A DNA stretch of 64,000 bases from Sarcomyxa edulis (taxonomy: Eukaryota; Basidiomycota; Agaricomycetes; Agaricales; Mycenaceae), in the NCBI GenBank assembly GCA_009761415.1, contig QUOL01000026.1, positions 124,001 through 188,000 on the forward strand. The letters run 5' to 3'. A program made the position numbers and the translations under genes. This document shows positions 5,010-55,992 of this stretch, piece by piece. Positions within the stretch are counted from its first letter, which is position 1, and every line of letters begins with the position of its first letter. The notes under the pieces are model-generated. The model saw nothing but the letters and a program-made list of their open reading frames with translations. It searched no databases and was not told where the DNA came from.

Positions 5010-5242
5010 TGTGTCGTGGTAGGAAAGACACTATTCTGTTATGGGATCTCTCGCACTTATCATTGCTATCAAGATTCGAATGGTGCAATTATGGCGTCGA
5101 TTCCGTGGTGTCCCATGACGCCTTATGAGTTACATCACTTGCAGTGATACCTATATGTGAGATAAGCGAACCAGTAGCAACGAGAACGATTCCTAACGCA
5201 GGATTGAGAGTCTAAGTACATACAAAAGGTATCATTGCTGCC

Positions 5243-30640: not shown

Positions 30641-30648
30641 CGCTCAAT
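30641..30648. repeat. Left 8-bp target site duplication (CGCTCAAT)
   Basis: CGCTCAAT directly abuts TAGTCT at the proposed left end of the helicase/DUF6589 element. The same octamer abuts the right end at 36598-36605. Confidence 0.7.
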
Positions 30649-30713
30649 TAGTCTCCCTGAGGCAGAGTAAACAATTCCTTGAAACCTCGTGCCTCGGGAT
30701 ATCCTTGTTTGAC

Positions 30714-30749
30714 GTCTGCTTTCTATAAGCCGGGTCTTGTCGATAGGTC
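30714..30749 (+). repeat. Subterminal inverted repeat, left copy
   Basis: GTCTGCTTTCT, 11 diverged bases, then CTTGTCGATAGGTC. The reverse complement of both blocks, with the same 11-base spacing, lies at 36560-36595. Confidence 0.85.
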
Positions 30750-30897
30750 AACTTCAACCTCCGCTCGGCAACTTGCGATGTCACGCGTCAGAGCCAACGC
30801 GTCAATTCTACGCGTTGTATTTTGTTGATCTCCTCCTCCTTAATCTACGAACTCTTGATACAACCTCTGATAACTTGAAAAGACCTGAAAAAACAAT

Positions 30898-33398
30898 ATG
30901 ACACCTGTTCCCCCACCACCAGATTGGTCCAAGAGGCTAGATTTTGACTGGATGTCTCCTGAGGGTCTCACCAAGCTGGCAGCTCTTGTCGCGCCATCCC
31001 TTCCATTTGTTCCAGCTCCGTGGCAGCTGGAATGCTCTGCTAGACTCTTGAATGGTCAAGATGTACTGTGTGTGAGTGCTACAGGGGATGGAAAGTCAGC
31101 CTTGATGTACATCCCTACTCTAGCACTACCGGGGACCATCACACTGATTGTTTCCCCTACTAATTATTTGGAGAGCGATATGGTTCGTTCTTGTGCCATT
31201 TCGTCTGATTTTCTGACTCTAATCAGCTCACTTTGGCTGTATGTTAGGTCCGTGGCCTTGGAAGCAAAGGAATTTCGGCTATTGCCATCAATTCGGACAC
31301 TCTCGCGGCTGCCGAGCTGGCCTCTCCTCGACGCGACCTTTGGGCTGAAGCAGCCACTGGGAAGCACCATATGATCTTCTTTGGGCCTGAGACGATGAAG
31401 ACCGCCAGCTACTCGACATTTATCCTCGATCCGGTCACCCGTCGGCGCATAGCTTTATTCTGTGTGGACGAGGTACACCTTGTAGATGAATGGGGTGTCG
31501 ACTTTCGTACGGCGTATGGAATAATCAGGACAATGCGTGCGCGACTTCCGGAATGGACGACATATTTTGCTGGGTCTGCAAGTGTCGAACCCGGCCGTCA
31601 AATGGAGAACATCATCAGGATGCTCGGGTTCCGACGCGGATCGTTTCACTTCGAAAAACGTGACTGTGAAAGACATAACGTAGACATCATACTTCGGGAA
31701 ATCAAGTATGCATGCTCAGGCTACGAGTTTCGTGATCTCGATTGGTTGATCCCATCCACGATGCTTAAGGCTTCCGATCTCGCAAAGATCATTCTTTATT
31801 GCGAGACCATCGAACTCGGACACCGCATTGTCAGCTATCTTCGCTCTCTTCTTCCACCACACCTCAAATCCAAGGCAAAAAACCTTATTCGCCATATTCA
31901 TTCGTTACACTGTCCGGATTGCAAAGCTGAGAGTCTCATCTCGCTGTACAAAGCTGGAGATGAACGTGACTGTGCCATATTCGTTGCGACAGCCGTTCTC
32001 GAGGTTGGATTCGACTTGCCGGACCTCGATAGTGTTGTTTTGTATCCAACACCGTCTAGTCTGTCAGGACTCATCCAACGTGCTGGTCGGCCTGCTCGTG
32101 GGAAGGGTATGCGGGGAACTGCGATTGTTTACATCAAAAAACAAGACATCGTCCAAGCTATACAGTACCTAGAGTCAGGAGAGACTCTCGATCCCCGTCT
32201 CCTGACCACCAAAGATACACCATTAGATCATGATCACCATGAAGACGACGCGCGCACAAGGACCATCGACTCAGAAGTAGTGTCGCTTACCGGAGGACCA
32301 AGTCCTACTTCGGTCGTTCCGGCGGTCCAATCTGAAGTATCCACAGACGTCAGTGTTGGTCGTACAACGCGGACCAAACCATCGAAGGAAAAGACGGGGA
32401 CAACAGGCTCTACCAGCACAAGGCTCAATCCGCCTCCTGGTAAACGAAAATGTACGGCTATCCGTCTCGTTGTTGCGGCACATATTCGCAACATGTGTAT
32501 CACCCGTCAGATAAATATGATCTACGGAAATCCTGGTGTTCTTGAGGATTGTAGACGTTGCAGCTCGTGTGTTGTCTATCCCATCCCTGAACCTCGATCG
32601 AAGCCTCCGCCACCCGAAGAAATCCCATCCACCGATACCAGCCTTCTATGGACGAGACCAACTGGAGCGGACGTGGAATATCTGGCACAACAGCTCGAAG
32701 TCGAAGCACTGAAGATTTGGAATATGCGATCTCATCGGGCCGATACTCTGTTCCTCAGCTCTCGTTGTTTCTTGTTGCCAGGATTGATGAAGAGAATAAC
32801 TAAGGACTTCCACTTGCTCACTACAGAGGAGGTACTTCGTCTGCGGATGACTGGGTGGCGGTACTGGGATTCATGTGGCTCTGCACTCTGGGAAGTTGTG
32901 GATAGACTGGGGAACGAAATGAAGGCCAAAATCGAGCAGCGTCATGTTTGCTTCTTGGAGAAGCAGCGGGCCCAAAGAGTCACAAAACAATTGGTAGCGG
33001 TCGGTTTGGATAAGGTGAAGCGAGTGCGATTGATTCTTCCTGATACTTCTCCGCAAAACAACTCCGAAAGCATGGATGATACCAGTGCATCCAGACCGAC
33101 TTCTCCAGTACCTTCGGCTGTTCGTGAAACTGTGGAACCGACTCATTTCTATGGTACAACTCTCAGAGAAACACGCTCGAGAAAGCGTTCCTTCCCATTG
33201 GATAGCACATCAACCCTTCACGTCGAGGCTTCAAAATTTGCTAAAATTAAAAGGAATATGACGGCAAGTTCTCCGAACAATCATGTTTGTCTACTTTTGC
33301 TCATCGCTAGACTCTTCTTAGGCTTCCCATCACAAGGAGAATATAGAACCAATAGCGAGTACATCACTCTCAGCCGCGGTTACGCGGCGCAGACATAA
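30898..33398 (+). CDS. RecQ-like DExH-box helicase of the mobile element
   Basis: Predicted ATP-dependent DNA helicase of 811 residues in two exons (30898-31182 and 31248-33398), joined in frame at SDM|VRGLGSKG. Motif I is SATGDGKSALMY (residues 60-71). Motif II is FCVDEVHLVDEWGVDF (around 167-182), where DEVH and the following xxEWGxDFR match RecQ proteins. Motif III is replaced by FAGSASVEP, and motif VI is GLIQRAGRPARGKG (around 370-385). After the helicase core a four-cysteine element, CITRQINMIYGN...DCRRCSSC, resembles the RecQ zinc-binding subdomain. No HRDC domain is seen. The rest is Ser/Thr/Pro-rich and poorly conserved. Agaricomycetes carry many such RecQ-like genes. Its position between inverted repeats, next to DUF6589, suggests a role in element mobility or replication (inference). 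Confidence 0.85.
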
Positions 33399-33414
33399 TG
33401 CATGAAGGTCTGTA

Positions 33415-36400
33415 CTATTCATTATCTTCCTCCGTGTCCTCGTCAAGTTCTCCGTCAACATGATTCTCCGTGTCTTCGTCGTCGTCCGTGTTTTCGTCTC
33501 CAAGAACCAGGCTTCCTTCCATCACCGTAGAAGGCATTAGCAACTCTAGCTCCGACTCGACATCTGGTGCTTCATCTACATCTAGCATCTCGACATCTTC
33601 CTCGTCACCATTTACATTTCCGGCGTCTAGCAATGTGCGATGTAGAAAGTCTTTTATCTTTGGTCCCTCCGCTAGGGCAATGAAACCTGTCTCAAAATCA
33701 TCTCGTGCAACATGCCCTAGAACACGTCCCGGTCGAAGCTTGTGGAGCTCTCTCTCTGTCATGGCGTCCCCTAGCTCCTTCATTGCGGCGCTCTTGACTT
33801 TGCGGCGATGAGATCCACCTTTTCGTGTCAGCCGGACCGCTGTCTTCATTGATTCGATGGACTGCAGAAACGCGCGTATGTTGTAGGCTATGATCTCCTT
33901 GAAGAAGCTTCCACCGAATTGAGCATCGCGACGCATTGACATCTTTTTGAGTTGTTTGATGTTGTGTTCTTGCAGCAGGTCCATGGGGAACCAACAGCCT
34001 TCGATGCCGGTAAGGTTGCACAACCAATTGTTGAGGATGGCTTCCTGGAGAGCATCTGAATATTCATATTCGAAATTACAGGCTAACTCCAGGAGCTCGT
34101 TTGAATATTTGCTCTTTCCACAGCCCGTGAATGTGAAGACCCAGACCTAACAACGCTGATGTGAGCAACAGATTCAGATGGTCTTGCGGGAAGCCGAACG
34201 TACCGCCATAACATTCATTGCCCGGCCTATGTCGCCCTCGGCCACAGCAAACTGGAATTCGAAATGAAGCATGCTATCACGAAGTCGCAGAATGGTATTT
34301 GAGAGGATCCAGTCACCAAGGACTCGAAGTGCGGGTTTCGACTTGTCAAGCTCAGAATCAATGTCCATTTCAGCAGGTGATTTCGTCCATGGAGTTCCAA
34401 CTGGGAAGCCATAGGCGGTGTCACCGCGTGAGGCATGTTCAGCTGCTTCCGTTGTCATGTATCGGGCAACAATATCCTCGCTCGCTTTTAGGAGGTCCTC
34501 AATTGGAGTAGGATGCTCTTCAAAATGATGTTGCAAGTCATCGACCCCAAGATAGACTCTAGGTGCGAAGATATTAGTTTATGCATGCCGTAACTGGTGT
34601 AATAACTCACTTCCAGCAATCAATTATCTCTGCCCGAAGATTGTCGAACACGAACCGCTGAGAAGGATAATAATCTGGACGTTTTACGTTCTTGACTTTT
34701 CCTCGCAAGATGGAATTCGTGAAACAAAACGAAGAAATATCGCCCGACTCCGAGTCTGTCTTTGTGTTTCCCCAATGAGTCGATAAAACACGCTCCAGGT
34801 CTGCCCATCCCATGTGCCAGAGTTGTATTAACGGGAGAACCCATCCATAACGCGCATAACCATGAGGACAATCTGCTAAAAACTTCTTGAGGGTTCTTGC
34901 TTTTTCGACGGAGGCTTGATCTCCTCCAAGAATTTCCAGAAGTTTCGCAACCTCTTCTTTTTCCAATCCTAGCTGTTTTAGATTGAGGTCATCGAATACA
35001 TTACGCTGGCCGGTAGTGTTGCCTTCGTCATAGTCGGACGTAGCTAGGGGATGAACTGTTGTTTTTCGTCCTTCACGCATACGGTGGGTAGAAAGGGTGG
35101 TGCGGAAACGTAGGTTGATGAAATCTTGGTGAATTTGAAGGATTGGGACTTCCTCTGTTAGGAACCGGAGAGTGTGGAGAGCGAACGTAGATTTCATCTT
35201 CGTCATGTCAATGCGATCCAGTAAGACATCGGCTGTCAGCTTGTCTCGGAGACGTTGATTATGTGCTTCCTCAAGAGCCTGTACATTGAATGCCTTCTGA
35301 GGATCGCAGTCCGCAACTTCCACAAATGTCGCAGCCGTCCCGTTATTGACCTGGTCCTTCTGGCCTAAATCAGGATCCCATGCTCGCTGCATCCGGTTAA
35401 TGTTGTCGTATATAAGTAGGAACGCTCGTGCTGGTGCTTTCTGACGGATGGTTTCCTGTGAAGACCGTGACAGCTTTCGGAGGAGTTTCAAAGTTGAGGT
35501 GTACGACGAAGAGAGTCCAATGCGATTGAGAACAGCATATATTGCGTGCGAAGCCGTGTTTGCAAAGAGCCATAGTCCGACAATATTTCGAAATGTTGAG
35601 AAGCGCAAGTTGCGGGCACACATGAGGAGAATACACGCAACCAGAAGGATCTAACATGGGATGATAAGTATATCGTAGTACCTGCACATCAGAATCTACT
35701 CACAACAAATGGATCCTGGCGGTTAAAGCCAGATCCCATGAAGAGAGGCTTCGAGAAATGGGTCGCGTACGGAGTATGATCACTCGATCCAGGAGGGGAA
35801 GCAGACATGCCATTTTGAGCTAGCTTCTTGACGGGAATGGCTGCCGCAACCAGGAGACGCAGAAGGGTGGGCGCTTTTTCTTCGACAAGTGCCATAACGT
35901 TTCCTAGGGAGAAGTTATGGATAAACTCCCATGTCGTGTCTGTTCCCGAGAAATGGAGGCCCCCCTTCTTGTTCGACACCTCCGCGGACTCTTTGTCGAC
36001 AATGGACTCAACCTTTTGGATAGCCCATTCCTGGATGTGCCAGCGTGCCATTTTCTTCGCGTCTGGTCTCTTCTTTTCGCTAGCAGGCCGGTCCTCTGTC
36101 ATGGTGCGTGCTGCCTTAGGTGCACTGTCCTTGCTTGAATACATGAGCTCGACAATTTCCGAGGCCTGGACTTTTGTACGGCCTCCGAGAAAAGCAGATA
36201 CCATCTGGCTATGGACCTGAGATCTGCCCTTGTCCTCCCGTACAGGAACTTCGAAGAGATACTTGAGAAAGCTGCCTAAAGTCCATCGGGATTTTTGCAT
36301 GCCTTTGAGGATTTGGTCCAGTCGTTCGGAGTCCGTGAGAGGTCTGTGAATACAGCCCGGACAGGTACAATGTTCATTACCCTCATTCTCGATGTTCGGC

Positions 36401-36441
36401 ATCGAGTGTAAAAGATGGAGGATATCGAACACGAATTTCAA
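33415..36441 (-). CDS. DUF6589-family protein of the mobile element
   Basis: Four exons (36441-35704, 35650-34611, 34558-34204, 34146-33415) join in frame to give 954 residues. I recognise the family from its C-terminal half: VWVFTFTGCGKSKYSNELLEL, then ALQEAILNNWLCNLTG and DLLQEHNIKQLKKM. The middle exon contains LLIYDNINRMQRAWDPD and DFINLRFRTTLSTHRMREG. The N-terminal part is rich in charged helices, with a CTCPGCIHRP cysteine cluster near residues 28-37. The tail is strongly acidic (DDDEDTENHVDGELDED). DUF6589 is widespread and expanded in mushroom genomes and has no assigned activity. Its location inside inverted ends suggests it could be the recombinase or transposase component, but I see no established catalytic triad. 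Confidence 0.85.
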
Positions 36442-36559
36442 AAAACATTTGCATTATAGTGGCGCAGTAGAGCTATAAGGAATGGTAATAGATCGATCAC
36501 AAAAGACTTCAAATGCGTTCAAATGATGCTTAAGTTGTTTTCAAGCTCCGATTAAATTG

Positions 36560-36595
36560 GACCTATCGACAAGCCCCTCGCGTCAGAAAGCAGAC
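36560..36595 (-). repeat. Subterminal inverted repeat, right copy
   Basis: Reverse complement of the blocks at 30714-30749. The outer block ends 2 bp inside the proposed right terminus, whereas the left copy is 65 bp inside its terminus. Confidence 0.85.
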
Positions 36596-36597
36596 TA

Positions 36598-36605
36598 CGC
36601 TCAAT
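36598..36605. repeat. Right 8-bp target site duplication (CGCTCAAT)
   Basis: Follows AGACTA at the right end of the element and matches 30641-30648 exactly. Confidence 0.7.
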
Positions 36606-40838: not shown

Positions 40839-40843
40839 AATCC
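40839..40843. repeat. Left 5-bp target site duplication of the Copia element (AATCC)
   Basis: AATCC precedes the LTR start TGTAG at 40844 and recurs at 45810-45814 after the other LTR. Confidence 0.9.
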
Positions 40844-41127
40844 TGTAGAAAATATGAGACTAAATTAATAGCTTAGATATTTCTGAGGACTATGATTGCG
40901 CAAGGATACTTAGAAGCTTAAGATCACTCGATTAGTTGGGGGGGAAATGATTGGATTAAATCTTCATATTCATGAGGCATTCTGTCGTGTATTTATACAA
41001 GTAATCTACGGGCATCGGGCATGCTTACTGATAAGCACGCCATGGTGTGGAACGATCTACTGCGTTCCACAGTATTCGGGCATGTACCCGGGTTGCCCGA
41101 GTACAGCGGATGCTGTTCTCGACAACA
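40844..41127 (-). repeat. Copia 3' LTR (284 bp)
   Basis: Starts TGTAGAAAAT and ends CGACAACA as written on the plus strand, giving TG...CA ends. By eye it is identical base for base with 45526-45809. It is the 3' LTR because the polyprotein reads on the minus strand. Confidence 0.95.
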
Positions 41128-41138
41128 CTCCCCCTCAA
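41128..41138 (-). other. Polypurine tract of the Copia element
   Basis: On the minus strand TTGAGGGGGAG lies directly before the 3' LTR, where plus-strand DNA synthesis is primed. It overlaps the TGA stop codon of the polyprotein (41135-41137). Confidence 0.85.
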
Positions 41139-44100
41139 GCCGGGAACATCCCGAGTTCGTGTCGGAACTTCTCGTGCTTGGGCTTGGCCAGTCCCTTCGT
41201 GAAAATGTCTGCTACCATTTCGTCAGTAGGACAATATATAACGTTGATCAAACCTTGTTCTACTTTCTCTCGAATGAAGTGGTTTTCGATGTCAAAATGT
41301 TTCGATCGAGCGTGGAATTGAGGGTCCTGTGTGAGGATGATAGCTGACTGGTTATCGGAGTATAGCGTGGTTGCGTCGTCTTGGGAGATGTCAAGTTCTT
41401 CGAATAAGTGCCGAAGCCATATGACTTGGCGTGTTGCGTGTGAGATCGCGGCGTATTCGGATTCGGTCGTGGATAGGGCCACTGTGGGTTGTTTCTTTGA
41501 GCTCCATGAGATAGCGCCTCCAGCAAGTAAGAATGCGTAGCCAGAAGTCGATTTACGGTCGTCGATGTCGTCTGCAAAAGCAGCGTCGGAGTAGGCGCCG
41601 AATTCGATGCCGGCGGCATTTGGCGTTGTTGAATTCCCAGGCCCATAGGTGATCCCGAGATCGCGCGATCCGGCTAGATACCGAATAACTCGCTTCAGGG
41701 CACTCCAATGCTGGGCTCCAGGATTCGCGGTATACCTGCTCAATCTCTGGACGGCAAACACGATATCAGGACGAGTGCACACAGCTGCGTACATCAAGAG
41801 TCCAATACCGGTCGCATAACCGCCTCGGAGCGTCTCGTCGGTGACAGCTGGCCCAAGATTCTTCGATAGGACGATATTCGGGTCGAGCGGCATGGCGACT
41901 GGATTCGCGTTTTCCATCTGGTACTTGCGTAGGATGGATTGGATATAAAGGTTCTGGGATATGGTAATTTGGTGAGTTTCCCGATCTCTATGAATTTCGA
42001 TTCCAATGATCTTCTTTGGTTCACCTAGGTCCGTTATCTCGAATTCTCCTGTGAGTTCACTCTTCAAGATTTCCATTTCGTCGGTCGTCTCAGTGAACAA
42101 CAATAGGTCGTCCACCCATACAGTCAGCATTGTCAGTCCGGAGTCGGTTGGGCGCGTGTAAACGCAGTGGTCGCTCTCGAGTCGCGTGAAGCCGAGTTTG
42201 GTGAGTACCGAGTGAAATTTACGGTTCCATTCGCGTCCTGACTGCTTGAGTCCATAGAGCGTCTTGTTTAGACGACAAACGCGATTTGTTCCATCCTCGT
42301 AACCTCTGGGTTGACGCATATAGATCTCCTCTTGGAGGTCTCCATTCAGGTAAGCTCCCTTGATGTCCATCTGCTGAATTTCGAGGTTTTTGATTGCTGC
42401 TATGGCTAGAATAGTGCGAAGCGAATCGTGACGGACGACGGGGGCGAAGGTATCGGTGTAATCCATACCAGGAATCTGTGAGTAGCCCTGTGCGACAAGC
42501 CGGGCCTTATATCTCGAGATATTACCATTCTCATCATATTTCTTCACAAAGGTCCATCGACATCCTATCGGCTGGCGTCCCTGAGGTAGATCGACGAGGC
42601 TCCAAGTCCCCATCTTCTCCAGGACATCCAGTTCCTCATGGACACCTTTCTCCCAGTCTGTCCAGTCAGGTGAGTCTCTTGCTTGCTCAATACTGTGCGG
42701 GACGTCGTCTAACGTGTCTGGGAGGGTTTCCATCATGGCTGCCATAGCGTGGTCTCCTTCGACGTCATTTTCGCCGAGTGAATCATCTGCAACGGTGCTT
42801 GGTTGGCGCGTATCGCCTCGATCAACGGCTGGTAATTGTGCATCGGGATTACCGAGTTTCCGATAGTTGTGGAGTTTGACGGGTCGACGGAGGATACGGG
42901 GCTCATCCTGAGGCTCAGATATGATATCGTTTGTGTAGATAGGCCGTTGGCGTAGTGGGATCGCGTTGGGACGGGGAATTAGGTTTTCGAGTTTGGATTG
43001 GTCTGCAGGTGAGTTGTTTGACTTCTCTGGTTGAAGGGAGGATGTGTTACTGATGGATTGAGGTTTGCCAGCGTCCTTGGACGACTCCCCCTCAAACGTA
43101 GAGCCATAGGTAAGTTCGGCATCCGTGAATTGAGCTCCAGAGCTGACTTCGGGGAACTTGTAGTTTCTAGATACTCCTATTGTTCGTTTAGCAGCGTCGT
43201 AATATCGTACGGCCTTAGGGCCATCTTCAAAACCTATAAAGACATACTTTTTAGCCTTTGCCTCAATCTTCGACGGCTTCTTTCCTTCAGTCAAGACCCA
43301 AACATCGGATCCGAATTCTCGAAGGTGCGAAATGTCGGGTTTCTTCCCATCCCAAGTCTCGTTCGGTGTCGCTCCATCGAGGGCTCTCGTAGGTGCATGG
43401 TTTCGTAAGTACGCGGCGTGACGGACGGCTTCTGCCCATAGGAATCCAGGGAGGTTTCGAGCAAGTAACATGGCGCGAGCGAGTTCGACGAGGGTGCGGT
43501 TAATTCGTTCGGCGACTCCATTTTGCGATGGGGAATAAGGTGCAGTAGTAAGTATTTTAATTCCTTTACCAGAGCACCAGGTACTGACTCGTTTGTTGAT
43601 AAACTCAGTGCCATTGTCGACGTGGATGGCCTTGGGCTTGACGTCGCCCTGGCGTTCGATTTCGGTGAGATATTCGACGATTTTATCATAGGCATCGCTC
43701 TTTCTCTTCAGGAACTTCACGGTACATCGGCGTGTAGCGTCGTCGGTGAAGGAAATGTAGTAATTAGCCTTCCCAATGGACTCCTTGCGTGCGGGACCCC
43801 ATAGGTCGCTATGGGTGACCTCGCCAGGCTTCTCGGAACGATTTTCGGTGGATTTGGGAAAGGGTAGACGGTGGAGTTTTGACTGTAGGCAAGCTTCGCA
43901 GTCACCAAGAGGTGGGCTGTCAGGTCTAATCTTGAAACCTTGTACTAACCCTTTTCTTTGTATCTCTTCTAGTGTAGACTTCGAGACATGGCCAAAGCGA
44001 CGATGCCAAGAGTCCCAAGTATCCCCCTCGATGTCGGCGACGGCGGCGCGTTCTGGAGTCGATGATGGGATGCGAGTGCGAGCGTGGATGGGATAAAGTC

Positions 44101-45370
44101 CCCGAGATTTTGATCCAGTAAGTACGAGTTGATTGTTCTTGTCGTGGATTGTTAACTTCTTGTTCTTGAAGCGAATATCTGCACCTGCATCGTCCATCTT
44201 TCCAGTAGATAAAAGATTATTGACTGCAGTAGGTGCGTATAGGACATGGAGGAGAGTGATGGGGATAGTCTTGCCTTCAAGCTGACTATCTATGATGACA
44301 GTTCCTCGGCCGGCTGCTTTGACAGCGTGGTCACCGAGACCTTTGATCTCGGTGTTCGAGAGAGGGGTGAAGTCGACGAATGAGGTACGTGTATTGCAGA
44401 TATGCGAGGTGGCGGCTGAGTCGGCTAACCAACTATCCTTCCCTAGGTGGGAATCGAAGTGTGTGTCGGCCGGAAACGCGTAGTTGCCATCGGTAGGTCC
44501 TTCATCGTCATCCTCCTGCGCTACGTTTGCGCGTTGCGCCCTCCCTTTACCTTTAACCTTCTTCTTTATACCAGAACTCCGAGGTCCCTGGCCCTCCTTT
44601 CCTCCGCCCTTCGACCAACAGTCAGCCTTCGAGTGGCCGCGTTTGTGACAATTCCCGCATACAGGAATAGACGACTGTCCAGAAGTGGACGTCGATGTCG
44701 GAGTCGGTCGAGAGGCAATCATTGCAGTATTGCTCTCTCCGGATTTCTCGCGCCGGCGTCGATCCTCGCCGAGTATGAGTGCGACGAGTTCGTGAGACTT
44801 GATAGTTGTGGCACGAGTGCTGTTAGCTCCAAGGTACGAAGTGGTGAACTGATCCCAGGATTCTGGAAGAGAAGTAATCAGTATGGTCAAGAATTCCTTG
44901 TCAGAAACAAGGTCTCCCATCGCATGTAAGTGTTCTTGGTACTTTCGTAGTTCAGTTATATGACTCACTATATCCGTAGATTCGTCGGCTATGCAGCGGT
45001 AGAGGCTACGCCGGTACGACATGATCCCGAGTTGGCCTGTCGATTCCTTGACTGTCTTCAACTGATCCCACATCTCTGCAGCAGTTGTGGCTCCCGCAAT
45101 GTGTATCATTTGCGAGTCACTTAGATTCAGTTCGATCTGAGTCTGTGCTTTGAAGTCCGCAGTCTCCCATTTCTCAATCTCTTTGGTCTCATCTGCAGTA
45201 GGCGTTGAGCCTACAGGCACGGGTTTCGAAACCTTGCCTTCGACATATACTAACAAGCTCTTTTCGCGTAAGATAGCAGTGATGCGTCTCTTCCACGCGA
45301 GCCAGTTGTCCTCAGTGAGGTGGTCAATACGAAACATAGACGTAGAGTTGGATTCGGTAGCGCTAGACAT
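41135..45370 (-). CDS. Copia Gag-Pol polyprotein (1411 residues)
   Basis: One open frame encodes the whole replication set. The Gag part begins MSSATESNSTSMFRIDHLTEDN and ends in a zinc knuckle CGNCHKRGHSKADC (CX2CX4HX4C) near residue 237. The aspartic protease motif is DSAATSHICNT (around 318). The pre-integrase HHCC region is HRRFGHVSKSTLEEI ... CEACLQSK. The integrase core includes HSDLWGP, HVDNGTEFIN and PYSPSQNGVAERINR. Reverse transcriptase contains KARLVAQGYSQIPGMDY, QMDIKGAYLNGDL and a catalytic WVDDLLLF where YVDD is usual. RNase H contains AYSDAAFADDIDDRKSTSGY and STTESEYAAI. Domain order PR-INT-RT-RH defines Copia. Nothing is broken. It acts in cytoplasmic virus-like particles and integrates cDNA in the nucleus. 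Confidence 0.97.
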   Translation of the reverse strand: MSSATESNSTSMFRIDHLTEDNWLAWKRRITAILREKSLLVYVEGKVSKPVPVGSTPTADETKEIEKWETADFKAQTQIELNLSDSQMIHIAGATTAAEMWDQLKTVKESTGQLGIMSYRRSLYRCIADESTDIVSHITELRKYQEHLHAMGDLVSDKEFLTILITSLPESWDQFTTSYLGANSTRATTIKSHELVALILGEDRRRREKSGESNTAMIASRPTPTSTSTSGQSSIPVCGNCHKRGHSKADCWSKGGGKEGQGPRSSGIKKKVKGKGRAQRANVAQEDDDEGPTDGNYAFPADTHFDSHLGKDSWLADSAATSHICNTRTSFVDFTPLSNTEIKGLGDHAVKAAGRGTVIIDSQLEGKTIPITLLHVLYAPTAVNNLLSTGKMDDAGADIRFKNKKLTIHDKNNQLVLTGSKSRGLYPIHARTRIPSSTPERAAVADIEGDTWDSWHRRFGHVSKSTLEEIQRKGLVQGFKIRPDSPPLGDCEACLQSKLHRLPFPKSTENRSEKPGEVTHSDLWGPARKESIGKANYYISFTDDATRRCTVKFLKRKSDAYDKIVEYLTEIERQGDVKPKAIHVDNGTEFINKRVSTWCSGKGIKILTTAPYSPSQNGVAERINRTLVELARAMLLARNLPGFLWAEAVRHAAYLRNHAPTRALDGATPNETWDGKKPDISHLREFGSDVWVLTEGKKPSKIEAKAKKYVFIGFEDGPKAVRYYDAAKRTIGVSRNYKFPEVSSGAQFTDAELTYGSTFEGESSKDAGKPQSISNTSSLQPEKSNNSPADQSKLENLIPRPNAIPLRQRPIYTNDIISEPQDEPRILRRPVKLHNYRKLGNPDAQLPAVDRGDTRQPSTVADDSLGENDVEGDHAMAAMMETLPDTLDDVPHSIEQARDSPDWTDWEKGVHEELDVLEKMGTWSLVDLPQGRQPIGCRWTFVKKYDENGNISRYKARLVAQGYSQIPGMDYTDTFAPVVRHDSLRTILAIAAIKNLEIQQMDIKGAYLNGDLQEEIYMRQPRGYEDGTNRVCRLNKTLYGLKQSGREWNRKFHSVLTKLGFTRLESDHCVYTRPTDSGLTMLTVWVDDLLLFTETTDEMEILKSELTGEFEITDLGEPKKIIGIEIHRDRETHQITISQNLYIQSILRKYQMENANPVAMPLDPNIVLSKNLGPAVTDETLRGGYATGIGLLMYAAVCTRPDIVFAVQRLSRYTANPGAQHWSALKRVIRYLAGSRDLGITYGPGNSTTPNAAGIEFGAYSDAAFADDIDDRKSTSGYAFLLAGGAISWSSKKQPTVALSTTESEYAAISHATRQVIWLRHLFEELDISQDDATTLYSDNQSAIILTQDPQFHARSKHFDIENHFIREKVEQGLINVIYCPTDEMVADIFTKGLAKPKHEKFRHELGMFPA

Positions 45371-45513
45371 ATTGGATGGTGGATATCAGGGTTTGGTCGG
45401 GTACGGCGTATGAAGTAGTACTAGTAGTACGTAGTGCGTGAAAGCGTGGTGCGGGTAGGTAGTGTTTAGAATAAAAAATCGAGTTGTATCTATCTTTTAA
45501 GTATCAGGCGTCA

Positions 45514-45525
45514 GGGCCCATAACC
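45514..45525 (-). other. Primer-binding site matching the anticodon arm of initiator tRNA-Met
   Basis: Directly inside the 5' LTR the minus strand reads GGTTATGGGCCC. It is complementary to GGGCCCATAACC, the anticodon stem-loop region of eukaryotic initiator tRNA-Met, and not to a tRNA 3' end. This is the half-tRNA priming known for Drosophila copia. Confidence 0.8.
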
Positions 45526-45809
45526 TGTAGAAAATATGAGACTAAATTAATAGCTTAGATATTTCTGAGGACTATGATTGCGCAAGGATACTTAGAAGCT
45601 TAAGATCACTCGATTAGTTGGGGGGGAAATGATTGGATTAAATCTTCATATTCATGAGGCATTCTGTCGTGTATTTATACAAGTAATCTACGGGCATCGG
45701 GCATGCTTACTGATAAGCACGCCATGGTGTGGAACGATCTACTGCGTTCCACAGTATTCGGGCATGTACCCGGGTTGCCCGAGTACAGCGGATGCTGTTC
45801 TCGACAACA
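45526..45809 (-). repeat. Copia 5' LTR (284 bp)
   Basis: Identical to 40844-41127. It carries the element promoter on the minus strand. Confidence 0.95.
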
Positions 45810-48174: not shown

Positions 48175-49274
48175 AAGCAGGGGATGATGTCTATAAAAAT
48201 GCTTCAGGTTCACCTTTACTTTCGCGCCCAATATATTTACGACGTCTTCGAAGGACGACCGAGAGCAACACCCCCATCCGCTATAGGGCCCCTGCGCCCC
48301 CAAATATTCCGTTTCGTCCCATAGGTTTTCGTTCCATCGGAGCCAAAGACTCTCAGATACCCGCTCGAAGGTATCGAAGTTTCCTTCGCAGTCAACATCA
48401 ACATCACTGAAGTATGTTACTTGCAAGAATTCCTCGATCGTATCTCCTAATTATCTCCCAAGACACTACGATTTCAGGGTGCTTCACCTTACAAGACTCG
48501 GATAGGATGTACGATACGTACTGGACACTCATCATATTGTGGATAATCTCGATAGGCTTTACCTCTGAGCTGAACTCTAAGTGAGTACTTATGCCGTTCG
48601 AATCAGGTCAATCACCTTATCATTCCCCGAACTCAAAGCTTCGTGGAGGCCATAGATCTGATCAAAATAATTAATATCCTGCCTACTGATATATGCACCG
48701 AGTCCATAGTCACACCCTCCCACCGAGTGGCTTTGTGTAAACAGGCTGCTCTACTTCGTTCCTAACTGCCAGGCGCCTCGAGACACATATAGTCGCGTGT
48801 CACATTCCACTCATCTGCGTTCAACTTCGATCGGTGGGACTGTATGAGAATGTGCAACACTCATATGAGCGCCTTTGAAGCCTGATTTTTGCCCAGTCCA
48901 GGGTGCAACGCTTTCGGTCTGACCTGTTGAATACCCTATGTACCGTTGGCTACTAAATTCTTGGATTCTCGTATGGGCGCTTCCAGGCGCTTTTCAAGAC
49001 GGCTTTGGACACGATGTCAAAAACGTGCTGAGGTCGTGCCACAGGCTGAGACACAGGTAGGGAGGTTTAAACCGAGCTTCTCTCTTTGGACTCCCATAGT
49101 ACTTAATCGACCTTTTCCGATCTGCACCCGTAAAGATTTACTGATCGCCGAAGGTCCGACACGTTGCAGACAGTTTTATGAAAAACTGCTGCTGCCTCGT
49201 TGACGGTAAGTAGGTGACAAAACGCCTCCAAAATTTCTTCCAGCGTGATCGAAACCAGCTGTTTGTGAGGTGTT
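48175..49274. other. Region left of the DIRS-like element without a supported gene
   Basis: About 1.1 kb with short frames only, including a minus-strand frame at 48085-48426. I see no motif, RNA gene or repeat apart from the element border at 49275. Confidence 0.4.
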
Positions 49275-49499
49275 GGCCTCTCCACTTTGGCCTCAGCGAG
49301 CTCGCGAGCTCGGCTCAAAGATAAGAGCGGTCTTTGTAAGCGCAACGTGGTTAACAGTTCTTCGGTCACGCGTGACGTGCTTCTTGGCTTCGAGGTCTGT
49401 GCACATCTTCTTTAGATAGCTCGAGAAGCTGTTTCTTTTCTCTTTACGCTTTTTATTCCCCCCTTCTCCCTCTGCGTGAATAATTCGCGTCTTTTTTCA
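49275..49499 (+). repeat. DIRS/Ngaro-type split direct repeat A1 (225 bp)
   Basis: Begins GGCCTCTCCACTTTGG and ends TCTTTTTTCA. By eye it is identical to A2 at 55379-55603. It carries the upstream end of the element, and the Gag-like start codon follows 46 bp later. Confidence 0.92.
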
Positions 49500-49545
49500 T
49501 CGTACTCACCTTATTCCTAATTTCCCTCTTAAAAAATCCCTCATT

Positions 49546-51123
49546 ATGGCTCAAATCCATCCCGAAGGTGCCGGAGACAAAGACACAAGCGACATTGACG
49601 GCGGACCGCCGCTTCCAAACCCTGCTCTTCTCACCTTACGTGAGAAGGAACTCGAGAACATGGCAAGGAAGCTACGTAATACAGCTATGGCCAATGATCC
49701 CACAACGATCGCTTATACTCCAGAGCACTATCTCCCTTTGGACACCGACATTCTCCGTTCTGACATTGAACTCGTAACCCCGCAACAACGTCCATCTTTC
49801 TTCTCCTTCCCCCCCGTCGGTGCTCCCAATCCCTTCAACATTCCTCCCCCTCCTCCTCCTCCTCCTCCTCCTCCCCCTCCTCCTCCCCCTCCTCCTAGTC
49901 CTCGTACCATTCGCATGGGTGCCTTACTCAAAGACTGGAAGAATTTTTCTCCTACCTCTCAGGCCACCATGCATTCCCTAATGGGCAACACGCTTTCGAG
50001 TACCTCTTCGGCCAAACCAGTTCCCCCGATCGTCCCGGTTATTTCGGCTTCTACCGGCGCTTCAGCCACAGTCATTACCTCGGCTATAGGCGCTGGTCCG
50101 AGGAAACTTTACTCATCAGAAGCCGAGTCACGCGAGACTCCCTCCATTGGTAACTTCGATTTCGGTCCCCATCCTCTCATGGTCAATCGTGTGGAACATC
50201 GTATGCATGCCCCTCTCTCCATGTTCACTAACGAGGCTAGTCGTAGGATGCATATTGGGATTCCTCCCATTCCGGTCATCACCAAACACGTTACCAGAGA
50301 TGATGGTACCACTCACAAGATACAGATCCACGACATCACCGCGTTCAAGTCCGAGGAACGCTTGGATTTTGATGAGTGGACCGAAGGAGGTAAAGGTTGG
50401 CTTAAATTCTTGAAAACGCGCGCGGATGACGCGGTTTACAAGCGTTGGCACGATCATCTGGAATTTCTGTCGAATCAGCCCAACATTCGTCGTAATTTCG
50501 CTGCTATCTTGCGTTTTGACATTGAACAGAGAACCGCTTATGCCCTTCATCCCAGAGTTTTTGACGCTCCTTCGTACACAGCGCGTTTTCAGGAAATCAA
50601 ACTAGAACTCCTGCAAGAAGCCGCTCCAAACGGCGCTCCCAACTCGTGGGCCTCTCAATCTTGGACCCCCAATGCTCTTCCTAGCATGTATCCGTACGCC
50701 GCTACCCCCTCCTTTTTTCCTCCTCCTCCCCCCTTAGCTCCCTCGTGGGCTCCTTCTAACACGTTCGGCGGCGGAGCTGACCGCTCTAAGAAAGGCAAGG
50801 AGCGCGTGACTCCCTATGCTTCTACAGATAATTTTCCACGAGCCCCTGGTCCTGCAGGCGCCTCCACTCCCATCTGCCTCATCTGTGGGAAACCCAATCA
50901 CAAGTTCTCGGCCTGCTCTGCGACGCCTGAAACGGAAGGAAAACAAATTTACGCGTCTTACGTTGGGAAGAACCTCGTGCAACGTTCCAACCCAAACAAC
51001 GTCCTCTGCGTCCGATGGAATCTCAACTCTGCCTTGCTCAAGTGTTCCAGCAGCCATCCCGATCGTCACCGCTGTTCCTTCTGTGGATCGGCCGATCATG
51101 CTGCCTGTTCCAGATCGTGCTGA
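49546..51123 (+). CDS. Gag-like protein of the DIRS-like element
   Basis: 525-residue open frame starting MAQIHPEGAGDKDTSDID. It has a tract of about 18 prolines around residues 101-118, then a structured middle (RLDFDEWTEGGKGWLKFLK ... IRRNFAAILRFDIEQRTAY). The C-terminal part has a zinc knuckle CLICGKPNHKFSAC (CX2CX4HX4C) and a second cysteine cluster CSFCGSADHAACSRSC. This is the expected first product, likely to coat the RNA in particles. The stop at 51123 lies inside the overlapping RT frame, which is read in a different phase, so the RT is probably made by frameshifting or from a separate mRNA. The ATG has a good context and follows repeat A1 by 46 bp. Confidence 0.88.
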   Translation: MAQIHPEGAGDKDTSDIDGGPPLPNPALLTLREKELENMARKLRNTAMANDPTTIAYTPEHYLPLDTDILRSDIELVTPQQRPSFFSFPPVGAPNPFNIPPPPPPPPPPPPPPPPPPSPRTIRMGALLKDWKNFSPTSQATMHSLMGNTLSSTSSAKPVPPIVPVISASTGASATVITSAIGAGPRKLYSSEAESRETPSIGNFDFGPHPLMVNRVEHRMHAPLSMFTNEASRRMHIGIPPIPVITKHVTRDDGTTHKIQIHDITAFKSEERLDFDEWTEGGKGWLKFLKTRADDAVYKRWHDHLEFLSNQPNIRRNFAAILRFDIEQRTAYALHPRVFDAPSYTARFQEIKLELLQEAAPNGAPNSWASQSWTPNALPSMYPYAATPSFFPPPPPLAPSWAPSNTFGGGADRSKKGKERVTPYASTDNFPRAPGPAGASTPICLICGKPNHKFSACSATPETEGKQIYASYVGKNLVQRSNPNNVLCVRWNLNSALLKCSSSHPDRHRCSFCGSADHAACSRSC

Positions 51124-53281
51124 GCATTCAGCACCTTCTACCACTGTCTTTACTGAACCTGCAGATTCCCCTGACTCGTCTCCCCTCTTACATTACTCGA
51201 TCTGGCCATCCCCTATAACTGAGCACGTCGCCAAAGATAGTTTTCCCCCTTATTTCGATAATCTCTCTCACATCCCGTCGGTTCACGATGCCGACCCCGA
51301 TTACTCTCACATTAAAACACCCTATTCGGCAGTGAACTTTAAGCTTTTCTTGACCAAATGTAATCTCCTCGACAGATATCCCGAGCTGTGCTGGAAGCTT
51401 ACTCACGGCTTCCCTATCGGCAAGGACCTCTCTCCCATTCTCGAATCTTATTGCCCTCCTAATCTCCCCTCCGCGATGCTGCACGCTGACGTCATTCGCG
51501 AATACATTTCAGAAGAGCTGGCTCTTGGCCGTTTCGTCGGTCCCTTCACTCGCGAGGAGTTGGAAGCCAAGATCGGTCCTTTTCGCTCTTCTCCGGTGCA
51601 GGTCGCTGTTAAAGTCGGTGCTCCTGGTGAGCCTGACAAATTTCGATGCTGTCGCAATCTCTCGTACAAGGGGAAGCTCGGCTACTCGGTCAACGACGAG
51701 ATCGATTCATCTGCCTATCCCACTAATTGGGGTCGGTCCGAAGATGTAGCCAAGATCGTGCGTCTCTCTTCTTTCTTCTCTCCCTCTCTCTCGCCGCGTC
51801 CTTCTCCTACTTTTTCCTCTCCCCTCGTTCGCTTCCTTCTTCTTTTCTTTCCTTTCATCCCGGTTTTTTGACACGGATGCACTTTACGGGTTTAACTTCC
51901 CGCTCGAAGGCACGTCGTCGGTAACCTTCTTTTTTCTATTCCCCTTTCCTTCTTTTTCTCTCTCATTTCTCTCTCCCACCAATCTCTCTCCTTTTTTCCC
52001 TTATTTCGTTCTCTTTGACGCCGGCCTCCATCTACGTCTCTTGTCATCTCACATCTCTTGTTTGTTGTATCACCGCAGGTTACTGAGGCCCCTGTGGGTG
52101 CTCAGGCGGCTACTCTCGACATCGAGGGCGCTTATCGCACAGTACCCGCTCTCCCCGCTCACAAACCCTATCTCGTTATCGAGTTCGAGGGCCTCTTCTA
52201 TTTGGATCATAACATTCCCTTTGGGCTGGCGTCGGCTTCTGGCCTGCAGGGCGAGGTTGCTGATGCCACCGTCTCGATTTGGAAACACCTTGGTGTCGGT
52301 CCAGTCGAGAAGTGGGTGGATGACTTCGATGTCTTCCGTTTCCCTGTCGAAGACGGCCCCTTCACCGGCGTCTCGAACGGCATATCCTACTCCTACTCCT
52401 ACGATCTCTCCTCCATCAAAGATCTCATCTCTCCGCTCCGCATCCCCTGGCACAAGGACAAGGGTCAGGAGTTTGGCGACTCCTTTACTTACGTCGGTTT
52501 TCTCTGGGATCTCCCTTCTCGCACTGTTCGACTTCCCGAGCGTAAGAGGCTCAAGCTCGTGGCCAAGATCACTCGTTTTCTCGATACCTTCTCCTCTTCT
52601 CAAGTACCTAAACAGACGCTGGAGAGTCTCGCTGGTTCTCTTAACCACGTTGCCTTCGTGTACACGCGCGGCAACTCTTACCTCTCGAACATGTACGCTT
52701 TTCTCGCCACCTTCTCCGATCCTTTCTCCCCGCGCTATCCCCCACACTCTCTCCTCTCTGACTTGCGCTGGTGGCGTTCTCAACTCTCGGTCCTCGGCGT
52801 CTTCCGTTCTTTGGCGCCCGTGGGGCCGGTACGCGACTACAACATCTGGGTGGACGCTTCCACGGATTGGGGCGTTGGCATTCTCTGGAACGGGTATTGG
52901 GCCGCTTGGCGGACTATTCCCGATTGGCGCGGCGATTCCCGGGACATTGGCTGGCTCGAAGCCGTAGCTATTGAGCTAGTCATTCTCGTCGCTTCTCACC
53001 TCTCCATTTCTGACGCCTCCTTCCTGATTCGCAGCGATAACGAGGGTGCGATTGGAGCCTATCGCAAAGGTCGTTGCCGGAACTGGCTTTCCAATCTCTC
53101 CATTCGTCGCTCCGAGTCCATCCTGGATTCCTCTTCTCTCTCTACGCACATCATATATGTTGACACTCACTCGAACCTGGCAGATGTCGTCTCCCGCGGT
53201 GATCTTCCTCCTGATGAGTTTCGCATCCCCTTCCCCATCCCCGTTCCTCCATCCATCGCTCAGTACTTCTACAGTGTCTGA
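50816..53281 (+). CDS. Reverse transcriptase/RNase H of the DIRS-like element
   Basis: Two exons (50816-51757 and 52079-53281), joined in frame as SEDVAKI|VTEAPVGAQ. The N-terminal part overlaps Gag; the true translation start may be later, near 51100, or by frameshift. RT motifs include RSSPVQVAVKVGAPGEPDKFR, ATLDIEGAYRTVPALP (catalytic Asp of motif A), IPFGLASASGLQGEV and the catalytic pair in KWVDDFDVFRFP. FTYVGFLWDLPSRTV follows. RNase H is seen as YNIWVDASTDWGVGILW, then IGWLEAVAIELVIL and IRSDNEGAIGAYRKG. The stop is at 53281. The 321-nt intron is far longer than host introns in this window and is almost pure C/T. Confidence 0.88.
51758..52078 (+). other. Long pyrimidine-rich intron in the RT gene
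   Basis: Donor GTGCGT and acceptor CGCAG restore the RT frame. The interior consists largely of TCTCCC and CTTTTT runs. Length is 321 nt, against about 50-70 nt for host introns. Confidence 0.7.
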
Positions 53282-53283
53282 GA

Positions 53284-54682
53284 CTCGAACGGTCGACGAC
53301 TTTCTCTTGCAGCTGGCGGATGATGAGTCCAGGGCCGCCTTTCGCGTCGTGGTCGGCGACGATTCTCTCCGTAGACAGGCCGTTCTGCCTCGTGACGGTC
53401 GGGTTCGCGTCGCTCGCAAGCCTGCCAAGGGCAACATCATCACTCCCTCGCCTTTTCGTCCGCACGTCCTAGCTACTGACCGTCTCATTCTCTGGACTAC
53501 TCCCTCTACCTCTCCCTTTCAACTTTCTCTCGAGTCTCAACTGCCCAATACTCCAGTTCTCAAGATGTTTCAAGTAATGATCTGCTCTCTTGACGAGGGT
53601 ACGAGGAGTAATTACGGGGCGGGTCTCCTGCGTTTCACTCAATTCTGCGACCGTCACTCCATCTCTGAGTTCCTGCGCATGCCGGCCTCCTCTCAGCTTC
53701 TCGCCTCTTTTGCCGCTGCTCACGCGGGCCTCGCCTCCTCCAGCGCCCTCAACAACTGGATGGCTGGGCTACATTTCTGGCACGTGGTCAACGGTGCCGC
53801 GTGGCACGGCGATGACATGCTTCGTCATGTGCGTCGGGGTTTTGCCAAACTAGTCCCGGCTTCTTCGAAGCGTGCCAAGCGTCCTCCAGTCACCATTGAG
53901 GCGCTGATGGTTCTCCGGGAGGGTCTTGATATGTCGAACGCCTTCGACGCGTGCGTCTGGGCTATTGCCTCTATTTCTTTCTGGTCCTGTTGCCGGTGAG
54001 TCTTTGGCCGGTCTCTCTCTTCTGCCTCTCTCCTCTCGTTTCTCCCTCTCCTTTCCTCGTTCTTTCTTCTCACTCTCTCGTCCCTCACAGTCTCGGCGAA
54101 TTGGTCATTCCCAGCCGTAACGCCTTTCTACCTCTCAAGCACGTCTCTCGTGAGGTTCTACCCATCAGGTTTTCCTCCGTTCTCCAGACCGGCGCGGCTT
54201 ACGCCTCCTTTCACATCCCCTGGACCAAGACCACCTTGCAGGAGGGTGCCGACATCTCCGTCACTCAACGCTCGACCTTGTGTCCTCTTGGCGCTCTCAA
54301 ACATCATCTCTCTTGCAACGTTAGTCCCCCTTCTTCCTCTCCCCTCTTTTCATTCGAGACGGCGGATGGCGTGTGGCAGCCCATGACCAAGGGGTGGTTC
54401 ATGTCTCGGTGCAACGCCGTGTGGGTCGCTGCCGGCTATCCGGACATGCCCGGTCACTCTTTCCGCATCGGTGGCGCCACTCAGCTCCTCCTCATGGGCG
54501 TCAGCCCCGACATCGTTGCTACTCAAGGGCGGTGGAAGTCTCAGGCCTTTTTAGATTACTGGCGCCGCATAGAATCTATACTCCCTCTGTTTCTCTCGAT
54601 GTCTGCTGAATCGTCTCACCTCCCAGATCTCGCCGCCTCGATGGAGGTCTTTCGGCAGAAACATCGATTGGCTCGCGCCTAG
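53284..54682 (+). CDS. Tyrosine recombinase of the DIRS-like element
   Basis: Site-specific recombinase thought to integrate circular cDNA. The frame is open from upstream of the RT stop (ESRTVDDFLLQLADDES) to 53995 and continues at 54091 after a 95-nt intron. The N-terminal core-binding part contains LDEGTRSNYGAGLLRFTQFC and SALNNWMAGLHFWH. The catalytic domain has box I Arg in CCRLGELVIPSRNAF, the HxxR motif in GHSFRIGGATQLLLMG, the GRWKS segment and the nucleophile tyrosine in LDYWRRIESI. The intron splits the box I Arg codon (CG|T). The stop is at 54682. All four main catalytic positions are intact. No separate ATG near the start is obvious, so expression may depend on the upstream frame. 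Confidence 0.88.
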
Positions 54683-55043
54683 TGATATTTTTCTTCTTTG
54701 CTCATTACGTCTCTCTCTACATATGCTTAGTTCTACATGCCGTCTACTCCCCCTATGCTCTGTATGCTCTCCATGTTCTCCTCTTTTCACGTTAGCCCCG
54801 TCTCCCGTTTTTCACGCGCACGATGCGCCGCTCGGTTACTTTTCACATACCTTACGCTACGGGTATTCTCGCGTTCGCTCCTTTGATATCTTCGACTATA
54901 ATCGTATGGGCCACTGGCCTTGACCTAGTTGGTCCCTTTTTTCCTTCGGTGTGATTTCCTTTTTTCTGTTCCTCTCAGCTCTGGTTTGTGGGTTCGGGTC
55001 TCCGTAGGAGACTCGACTGGTTGTGAGCTGTGAGCTCCCTAGA
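54683..55043 (+). other. Non-coding 3' part of the DIRS-like element
   Basis: The sequence between the recombinase stop and repeat B1 is pyrimidine-rich with no open frame of note. It presumably holds the 3' untranslated region. Confidence 0.5.
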
Positions 55044-55378
55044 GGTTTGGTCTCGTTCCTGTTGGAGACCCGTTGGTCTTCGGAGCGATTCAGCTTTAGC
55101 ACGCTCAGAAGTCTCTGAAGCTCCGATCGATCGTGTTGCCTTTTCGAGATGCCGACGGCATGCTCTGGCTCCGATTTTGGACTCGGTCTCGGCCTCAGTC
55201 ACGTGACTGCCTCGACGCTTCAGATCTTCCCCCAAACCCCCGAACTCGGATCAAGCATCGAGTTCGTTTTGCTTTCTCGCCCGACACTCGCTCAGTTTGA
55301 GCATTGAACTACTTTCGAATCTCAAACTGATTTTCCTTTCCTCAACTGTCCGAACTAGTGCGCATCCTTTACAAAGAT
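55044..55378 (+). repeat. DIRS/Ngaro-type split direct repeat B1 (335 bp)
   Basis: Begins GGTTTGGTCTCGTTCC and ends CTTTACAAAGAT. Identical by eye to B2 (55658-55992). It abuts A2 with no gap. Confidence 0.92.
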
Positions 55379-55603
55379 GGCCTCTCCACTTTGGCCTCAG
55401 CGAGCTCGCGAGCTCGGCTCAAAGATAAGAGCGGTCTTTGTAAGCGCAACGTGGTTAACAGTTCTTCGGTCACGCGTGACGTGCTTCTTGGCTTCGAGGT
55501 CTGTGCACATCTTCTTTAGATAGCTCGAGAAGCTGTTTCTTTTCTCTTTACGCTTTTTATTCCCCCCTTCTCCCTCTGCGTGAATAATTCGCGTCTTTTT
55601 TCA
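55379..55603 (+). repeat. DIRS/Ngaro-type split direct repeat A2 (225 bp)
   Basis: Identical by eye to A1 (49275-49499). The contiguous B1-A2 junction is the template bridge that lets these elements regenerate their ends as a circle. Confidence 0.92.
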
Positions 55604-55657
55604 CCCACCCACCTCCCTTCTATCCCACTGTGTGGTCTATCTCTCCTAGCGTGCTTT

Positions 55658-55992
55658 GGTTTGGTCTCGTTCCTGTTGGAGACCCGTTGGTCTTCGGAGC
55701 GATTCAGCTTTAGCACGCTCAGAAGTCTCTGAAGCTCCGATCGATCGTGTTGCCTTTTCGAGATGCCGACGGCATGCTCTGGCTCCGATTTTGGACTCGG
55801 TCTCGGCCTCAGTCACGTGACTGCCTCGACGCTTCAGATCTTCCCCCAAACCCCCGAACTCGGATCAAGCATCGAGTTCGTTTTGCTTTCTCGCCCGACA
55901 CTCGCTCAGTTTGAGCATTGAACTACTTTCGAATCTCAAACTGATTTTCCTTTCCTCAACTGTCCGAACTAGTGCGCATCCTTTACAAAGAT
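55658..55992 (+). repeat. DIRS/Ngaro-type split direct repeat B2 (335 bp)
   Basis: Second copy of B1. It is separated from A2 by 54 bp and forms the right end of the element. Confidence 0.92.

Follow-up and report, generated by a model that had tools for sequence, protein, structure and literature searches.

DNA transposons that travel with a helicase include KolobokH and AcademH, the latter a member of the Academ superfamily that was reportedly defined by Kojima in 2020. Kolobok elements duplicate TTAA at their target site, Helitrons have neither a target-site duplication nor terminal inverted repeats (TIRs), and we know of no helicase in the hAT and P superfamilies. AcademH is outlined in passages of PMC10045372 and PMC10799480 as a helicase-bearing DNA transposon, present in Basidiomycota among other groups, that makes 9-10-bp duplications, and the work defining it is cited in passages of PMC8290104 and PMC12210899. 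A passage of PMC9587614 places a RecQ helicase in KolobokH, a fungal DNA transposon, and also notes a single Kolobok, from a red alga, whose RecQ lies on the complementary strand. The part of PMC12730594 concerned gives 8-bp duplications as usual for hAT and as a feature of Zisupton and a Dileera family, with Zisupton/KDZ members reported from agaricomycetes. Here, we describe a 5949-bp element (30649..36597, TAGTCT...AGACTA) within a 64,000-nucleotide stretch of the Sarcomyxa edulis genome (contig QUOL01000026.1, positions 124,001 to 188,000; hereafter the window, to whose first letter positions refer). It carries a RecQ-like helicase gene and a gene for a DUF6589 protein, and we are confident that it is an intact and probably autonomous TIR DNA transposon in which DUF6589 would be an RNase H-fold DDE transposase, with the helicase co-travelling.

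An initial annotation, made from the letters of the window, had placed CGCTCAAT directly before TAGTCT at 30641-30654 and directly after AGACTA at 36592-36605, and both junctions were found exactly there, giving an 8-bp target-site duplication at the left (30641..30648) and the right (36598..36605) of the element. Among pairs of 8-bp repeats with inverted ends lying at least 2.5 kb apart in the 10-kb stretch around the element, the CGCTCAAT/TAGTCT pair ranked first, with six perfect terminal bases compared to at most four for the runner-up, and the 14-mer CGCTCAATTAGTCT had a single occurrence in the window and a single one in the 35.6-Mb genome. The borders are not due to chance, because 12 other copies start and stop at the same bases, each within a different 8-bp duplication. 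When the whole unit was searched against its own genome by blastn, the ends recurred, and weak internal matches, all to the DUF6589 gene, were confined to one type of copy (subfamily C, below). Fourteen left and 14 right ends paired into the window copy, which is the only full-length copy of its family in the genome, 12 shorter copies (924-1561 bp), and the C7 copy, which has the same borders but is interrupted by an insertion; no solitary right end was found, all 14 right ends detected belonging to both-ended copies (counts are lower bounds). Perfect 8-bp duplications, each of different sequence, flanked 13/13 uninterrupted copies (window included), and the same 8-mer was situated outside the left and right ends of the C7 copy. 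TIRs and duplications of one fixed length in several independent copies (8 bp in 13/13) are the pattern of DDE TIR transposons, and the recurrence of these ends with 8-bp duplications, proposed as a check by the initial annotation, held within this genome. The copies also ended at the proposed borders, and the 110-bp flank pairs of the 13 copies matched only themselves. Joining each of these 13 flank pairs and searching the same genome returned 26 matches, 26/26 of them to their own flanks, with no empty site, paralogous ones included, in an assembly that holds filled sites only.

The copies fell into three subfamilies: A (window type, with short copies 98-99% identical among themselves), B (92-96%) and C. 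All four C copies tested by tblastn kept an N-terminal part of DUF6589 in native orientation, and in three of them the distance from the codon of residue 37 to the right end was 315-318 bp, similar to the 303 bp in the window. The C copies therefore descend by deletion from other elements that carried DUF6589, so that the link of DUF6589 to these ends does not depend on the window copy. The 23-kb C7 copy was considered as a cargo element and rejected, as it is a C-type copy into which another TIR element has inserted. That insertion (21.9 kb, ~342218-364078) is a large TIR element whose ends read AGGGTGTTTC...GAAACACCCT and which may be flanked by a 3-bp duplication, AAT.

Exactly two genes lie between the ends of the window element, as had been claimed from the letters; both are intact and they stand tail to tail, with 16 bp between their stop codons. 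Exon borders were read from sequence alone, without transcripts, as the longest open splice. The first gene (30898..33398, plus strand; exons 30898-31182 and 31248-33398, intron 31183-31247) encodes a RecQ-like superfamily 2 (SF2) helicase of 811 aa, which matched PF00270 (E-value 9.8e-12) and PF00271 (4.4e-10) and has intact ATGDGKS (Walker A), DEVH and QRAGRPARG (QRxGR-type) motifs. For its exon 2, RecQ was the nearest solved structure (8.1e-10), and the nearest NCBIfam model was TIGR00614 (4.4e-18), scoring 65 bits where the cut-off is 220. The second gene (33415..36402, minus strand; exons 36402-35704, 35650-34611, 34558-34204 and 34146-33415) encodes the DUF6589 protein of 941 aa, the predicted DDE transposase, with PF20231 (DUF6589) matched in three of the four exon open reading frames at E-values from 1.7e-17 to 3.1e-47.

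AlphaFold models of DUF6589 proteins from two clades (m1bdf79d7ad20 and m41de803769b7, one of the modelled proteins being homolog P0002) had DDE transposases as their leading structural matches at moderate scores, the top folds for both being hAT (Hermes) and P element at moderate Z. A D-D-E triad was conserved among DUF6589 proteins. In the window gene, on the minus strand, the predicted catalytic residues are D315 in a YDN motif (codon at 35405..35407), D477 in a GDQ motif (34919..34921) and E758 in a QEH motif (33967..33969). Prediction thus gives DUF6589 both the RNase H-like fold with a D-D-E triad of DDE transposons and the helical insertion of the RNase H fold seen in Hermes and the P element. 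At the level of sequence, the DUF6589 profile had no match to solved structures up to an E-value of 1, DUF6589 proteins matched no Pfam family except DUF6589 above its cut-off, and no hAT or P-element family was among Pfam matches up to an E-value of 1, at which distant membership would still be compatible. By the same threshold, neither a KDZ transposase domain nor a Rep/HUH nuclease family was among the Pfam matches of the element proteins. The suggestion that DUF6589 may supply the recombination activity therefore gains backing from the predicted folds of two clades and the conserved D, D and E, and DUF6589 is very probably the transposase, with the RecQ-like helicase as its passenger. The reverse arrangement, in which the helicase would be the mover in a Helitron-like or other helicase-driven replicative process and DUF6589 an accessory, might be entertained as Helitrons include helicases, which are common in fungal elements according to a passage of PMC10799480, and as the solitary left ends with varied right borders described below could be aborted one-ended events. 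We consider it very improbable, given the missing Rep/HUH match, the predicted transposase fold and triad of DUF6589, and the TIRs and fixed 8-bp duplications of the window element, neither of which is a Helitron feature.

Related pairs of the two genes were found elsewhere in the genome. Nine loci encoded DUF6589, and at six of these a helicase stood tail to tail with it (window, C1:2.876 Mb, C13, C17, C11 and C10), although at C10 the paired helicase was a C-terminal piece with a Pfam match below threshold. At C1:2.529 Mb the helicase was 8 kb away and divergent, at C6 there was none in the 10-kb locus, and at C5 there was no helicase match on the contig. Searching with the window helicase likewise found nine loci, four of them in tail-to-tail pairs (window, C1:2.879, C13 and C17); the remainder comprised the C1 locus in divergent orientation, a C10 locus 27 kb away from a DUF6589 gene, and three (C2, C4, C14) with no DUF6589 gene nearby, which are perhaps host RecQ genes. 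Four of the other paired loci could be delimited as elements, each with a 9-bp target-site duplication: C1 (2874755-2880422; ends TAGTCTCG..., duplication TCTATATGC), C13 (40213-46464; ends CAGACTCCTACCC..., duplication CGTGACCGG), C17, of the same type as C13 (250574-269080; duplication ATCAGATAT; interrupted by 12.25 kb), and C11 (621470-628048; ends TAGAC..., duplication GGAAGGACA), whose ends are the least certain. Their ends resemble those of the window family, yet the duplications were 9 bp in 4/4. In base-shuffled loci, a perfect TIR of at least five bases beside a 9-bp repeat arose in 10/140 trials, and the C11 ends, with five perfect bases, therefore rest mainly on a nearby 98-bp inverted repeat of 92% identity. 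A scan for TIRs with duplications at three further DUF6589 loci (L055, L059, L060) gave nothing convincing. The 12.25-kb insertion in C17 (~253228-265477) resembles a long terminal repeat (LTR) retrotransposon, its ends being TGTGG...CCACA and its duplication 5 bp long (ATCCC).

Because the C13 and C17 copies were identical across the compared 3603, 727 and 328 bp, with differing 9-bp duplications, the helicase-DUF6589 pair has very probably moved as one unit recently. That the two genes form one mobile unit, as proposed from the window, agrees with the recurrent same-border copies in their own 8-bp duplications, the DUF6589 remnants of the C copies and the three further types of tail-to-tail element. 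It is scarcely credible that an unrelated transposase moves ends which happen to enclose two ordinary host genes: the presence of only one full-length copy of the window family would suit such an accident, but elements of different sequence, with ends of their own, also contain the pair, the two genes share contigs in other species, and subfamily C descends from DUF6589-containing copies.

In those other species, linkage was judged by a fingerprint (same species and an equally long contig) in place of genomic context. Two protein searches, in which part of the candidates was scored, provided the homologs (86/86 in one, the best 120 of 292 in the other), with DUF6589 in all 206, and the genera named among the DUF6589 homologs are, as far as we recognise them, agaricomycetes. 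Of 40 matches to the window helicase, 16 were species-named agaricomycete homologs, after leaving out 22 that were bacterial or lacked a species name and the weaker Ceratobasidium P0233 and Sphaerobolus P0234. Ten of the 16, with six unmatched helicases kept in the denominator, shared species and an equal-sized contig with a DUF6589 protein of the window clade, and conversely 10/14 window-clade DUF6589 proteins of those species shared with a helicase. In the control, 0/30 species-contig pairs of other DUF6589 clades from the same species did so; these were 30 distinct pairs (P0137 was omitted as the same pair as P0103) drawn from the best 120 of 292 proteins. The Athelia sp. TMB genes for the helicase and DUF6589 carry the locus tags HWV62_19595 and HWV62_19597, respectively. 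A shared contig is weaker evidence than adjacency, as some contigs exceed 1 Mb, but chance sharing is nonetheless unlikely since the control gave none. Weighing against joint travel, 10 metagenome helicases and 20 metagenome DUF6589 proteins, all without species names, had no equal-sized contigs in common, these contigs being short. Linkage of the two genes, whose absence elsewhere the initial annotation would have taken as refutation, was thus seen at 6/9 DUF6589 loci of this genome, and contig sharing points to it in other species as well. A Stereum protein with DUF6589 and DEAD matches (P0073) was tried as a fusion and excluded from the linkage counts, as it is apparently a gene model joining a degraded DUF6589 to a piece of helicase. 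DUF6589 was not detected in IMG/VR with the one peptide pattern searched.

The terminal structure of the window element is asymmetric. The left end is composite, starting with a 65-bp unit that has an imperfect palindrome of its own (CCCTGAGGCA...TGCCTCGGGA; 30649..30713, plus strand) and continuing with an inner inverted repeat (GTCTGCTTTCT...TTGTCGATAGGTC; 30714..30749, plus strand), the counterpart of the right-hand TIR (TAGTCTGCTTTCT...TTGTCGATAGGTC on the minus strand; 36560..36597). The DNA fold z was -3.06 for the left 65-bp unit and +0.56 for the right end. Left-end units of 57-69 bp also occurred alone at nine loci (L045-L048 and L050-L054), with no right end found; L049 was classed as a degraded larger copy and is outside this count. 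Five of the nine had perfect 8-bp duplications, one had a duplication with 7 of 8 bases, and in three (L047, L048, L054) it was shorter or displaced. L045 and L046 were the B-subfamily unit, unchanged, whilst the position of the right border differed between units (57, 60, 65 or more bp) and in some of them resembled a terminus, with YTA as the last bases. We suggest that these units are micro-elements, mobilised since both arms of the palindrome resemble the transposase site; alternatively, they may be products of an aborted one-ended event. To our knowledge, they are among the smallest transposition products.

With regard to known transposon kinds, the initial annotation had called the element unclassified, which stands in part: helicase-bearing TIR transposons were already known in AcademH, as its descriptions convey, but the 8-bp duplication departs from them. 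Likeness to AcademH, as sketched in the passages cited above, lies in a DNA transposon with a helicase in fungi, including Basidiomycota, and in the 9-bp duplications of the related elements here (C1:2874755, C13/C17 and C11), which fall within its 9-10 bp. In contrast, duplications of the window family were 8 bp in 13/13 copies and fall outside the 9-10 bp given in the passage of PMC10045372, and the left end of the window family is asymmetric, containing a palindromic unit; AcademH was compared here by description. DUF6589 may be the Academ transposase, and there is a somewhat better than even chance that the element is simply an AcademH member with slightly shorter duplications, DUF6589 being the fungal Academ transposase; this reading competes on novelty only, as the mechanism would be identical. 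More tentatively, and with the odds somewhat against it, DUF6589 elements could constitute a DDE superfamily of their own, characterised by convergent genes for a transposase and its RecQ-like helicase, duplications of 8 or 9 bp according to lineage and, in the window family, a palindromic left end that jumps alone as a 57-69-bp micro-element, the agaricomycete DUF6589 genes then being transposases. KolobokH, as presented in the source above, likewise combines a fungal DNA transposon with RecQ, but the window element has its helicase as a gene apart, convergent and on the other strand, and the window family has 8-bp duplications of varied sequence and no TTAA. Hermes and the P element share the predicted fold of DUF6589, and hAT the usual duplication length. 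Zisupton/KDZ elements differ from the window element, which has a helicase partner and two genes only, neither of them TET/JBP.

For the DDE transposon that we favour, DUF6589, with D315, D477 and E758 at its putative active site, would be an RNase H-fold DDE enzyme and, like those of hAT, P and RAG1/Transib, have a helical insertion ahead of the last E. It would cleave at TAGTCT...AGACTA and join the ends to target DNA at positions staggered by 8 bp, after which gap repair would convert the stagger into the 8-bp duplication, presumably in a cut-and-paste rather than a copying reaction. The RecQ-like helicase would travel along, and probably assists, either in the opening of ends or in gap processing. 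The 0.9-1.6-kb deletion derivatives would be mobilised by DUF6589 in trans, as perhaps would the left-end units of 57-69 bp.

Other features of the window include an open frame for a short-chain dehydrogenase (PF00106; 30001-30423, minus strand), ~220 bp left of the element, and an intact copia-type LTR retrotransposon (40842-45809) encoding 1416 aa with gag, integrase and RVT_2, which was recently inserted as its 286-bp LTRs are identical. Split direct repeats, all 100% identical, are found within 49274-55992 (49274-49499 with 55378-55603, and 55044-55378 with 55658-55992). The layout and the frames inside, which we take to resemble reverse transcriptase and RNase H, are presumably those of a DIRS/Ngaro-type retroelement, and the two frames tested there had no Pfam match. 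A diverged tandem duplication (3826-6629) comprises two segment pairs that are 67-73% identical.

DUF6589 has no function given in Pfam, and among the literature searched no relevant paper mentioned DUF6589 or PF20231 and no link between DUF6589 and a transposon appeared. If DUF6589 is a DDE transposase, a large family of orphan fungal genes would become transposon genes, and genome annotation would be corrected accordingly. The element would further provide a testable two-protein system for the role of a RecQ-type helicase in DNA transposition, and offers tests of the minimum size of a mobile unit and of why the length of the duplication, 8 or 9 bp, varies between related transposases.
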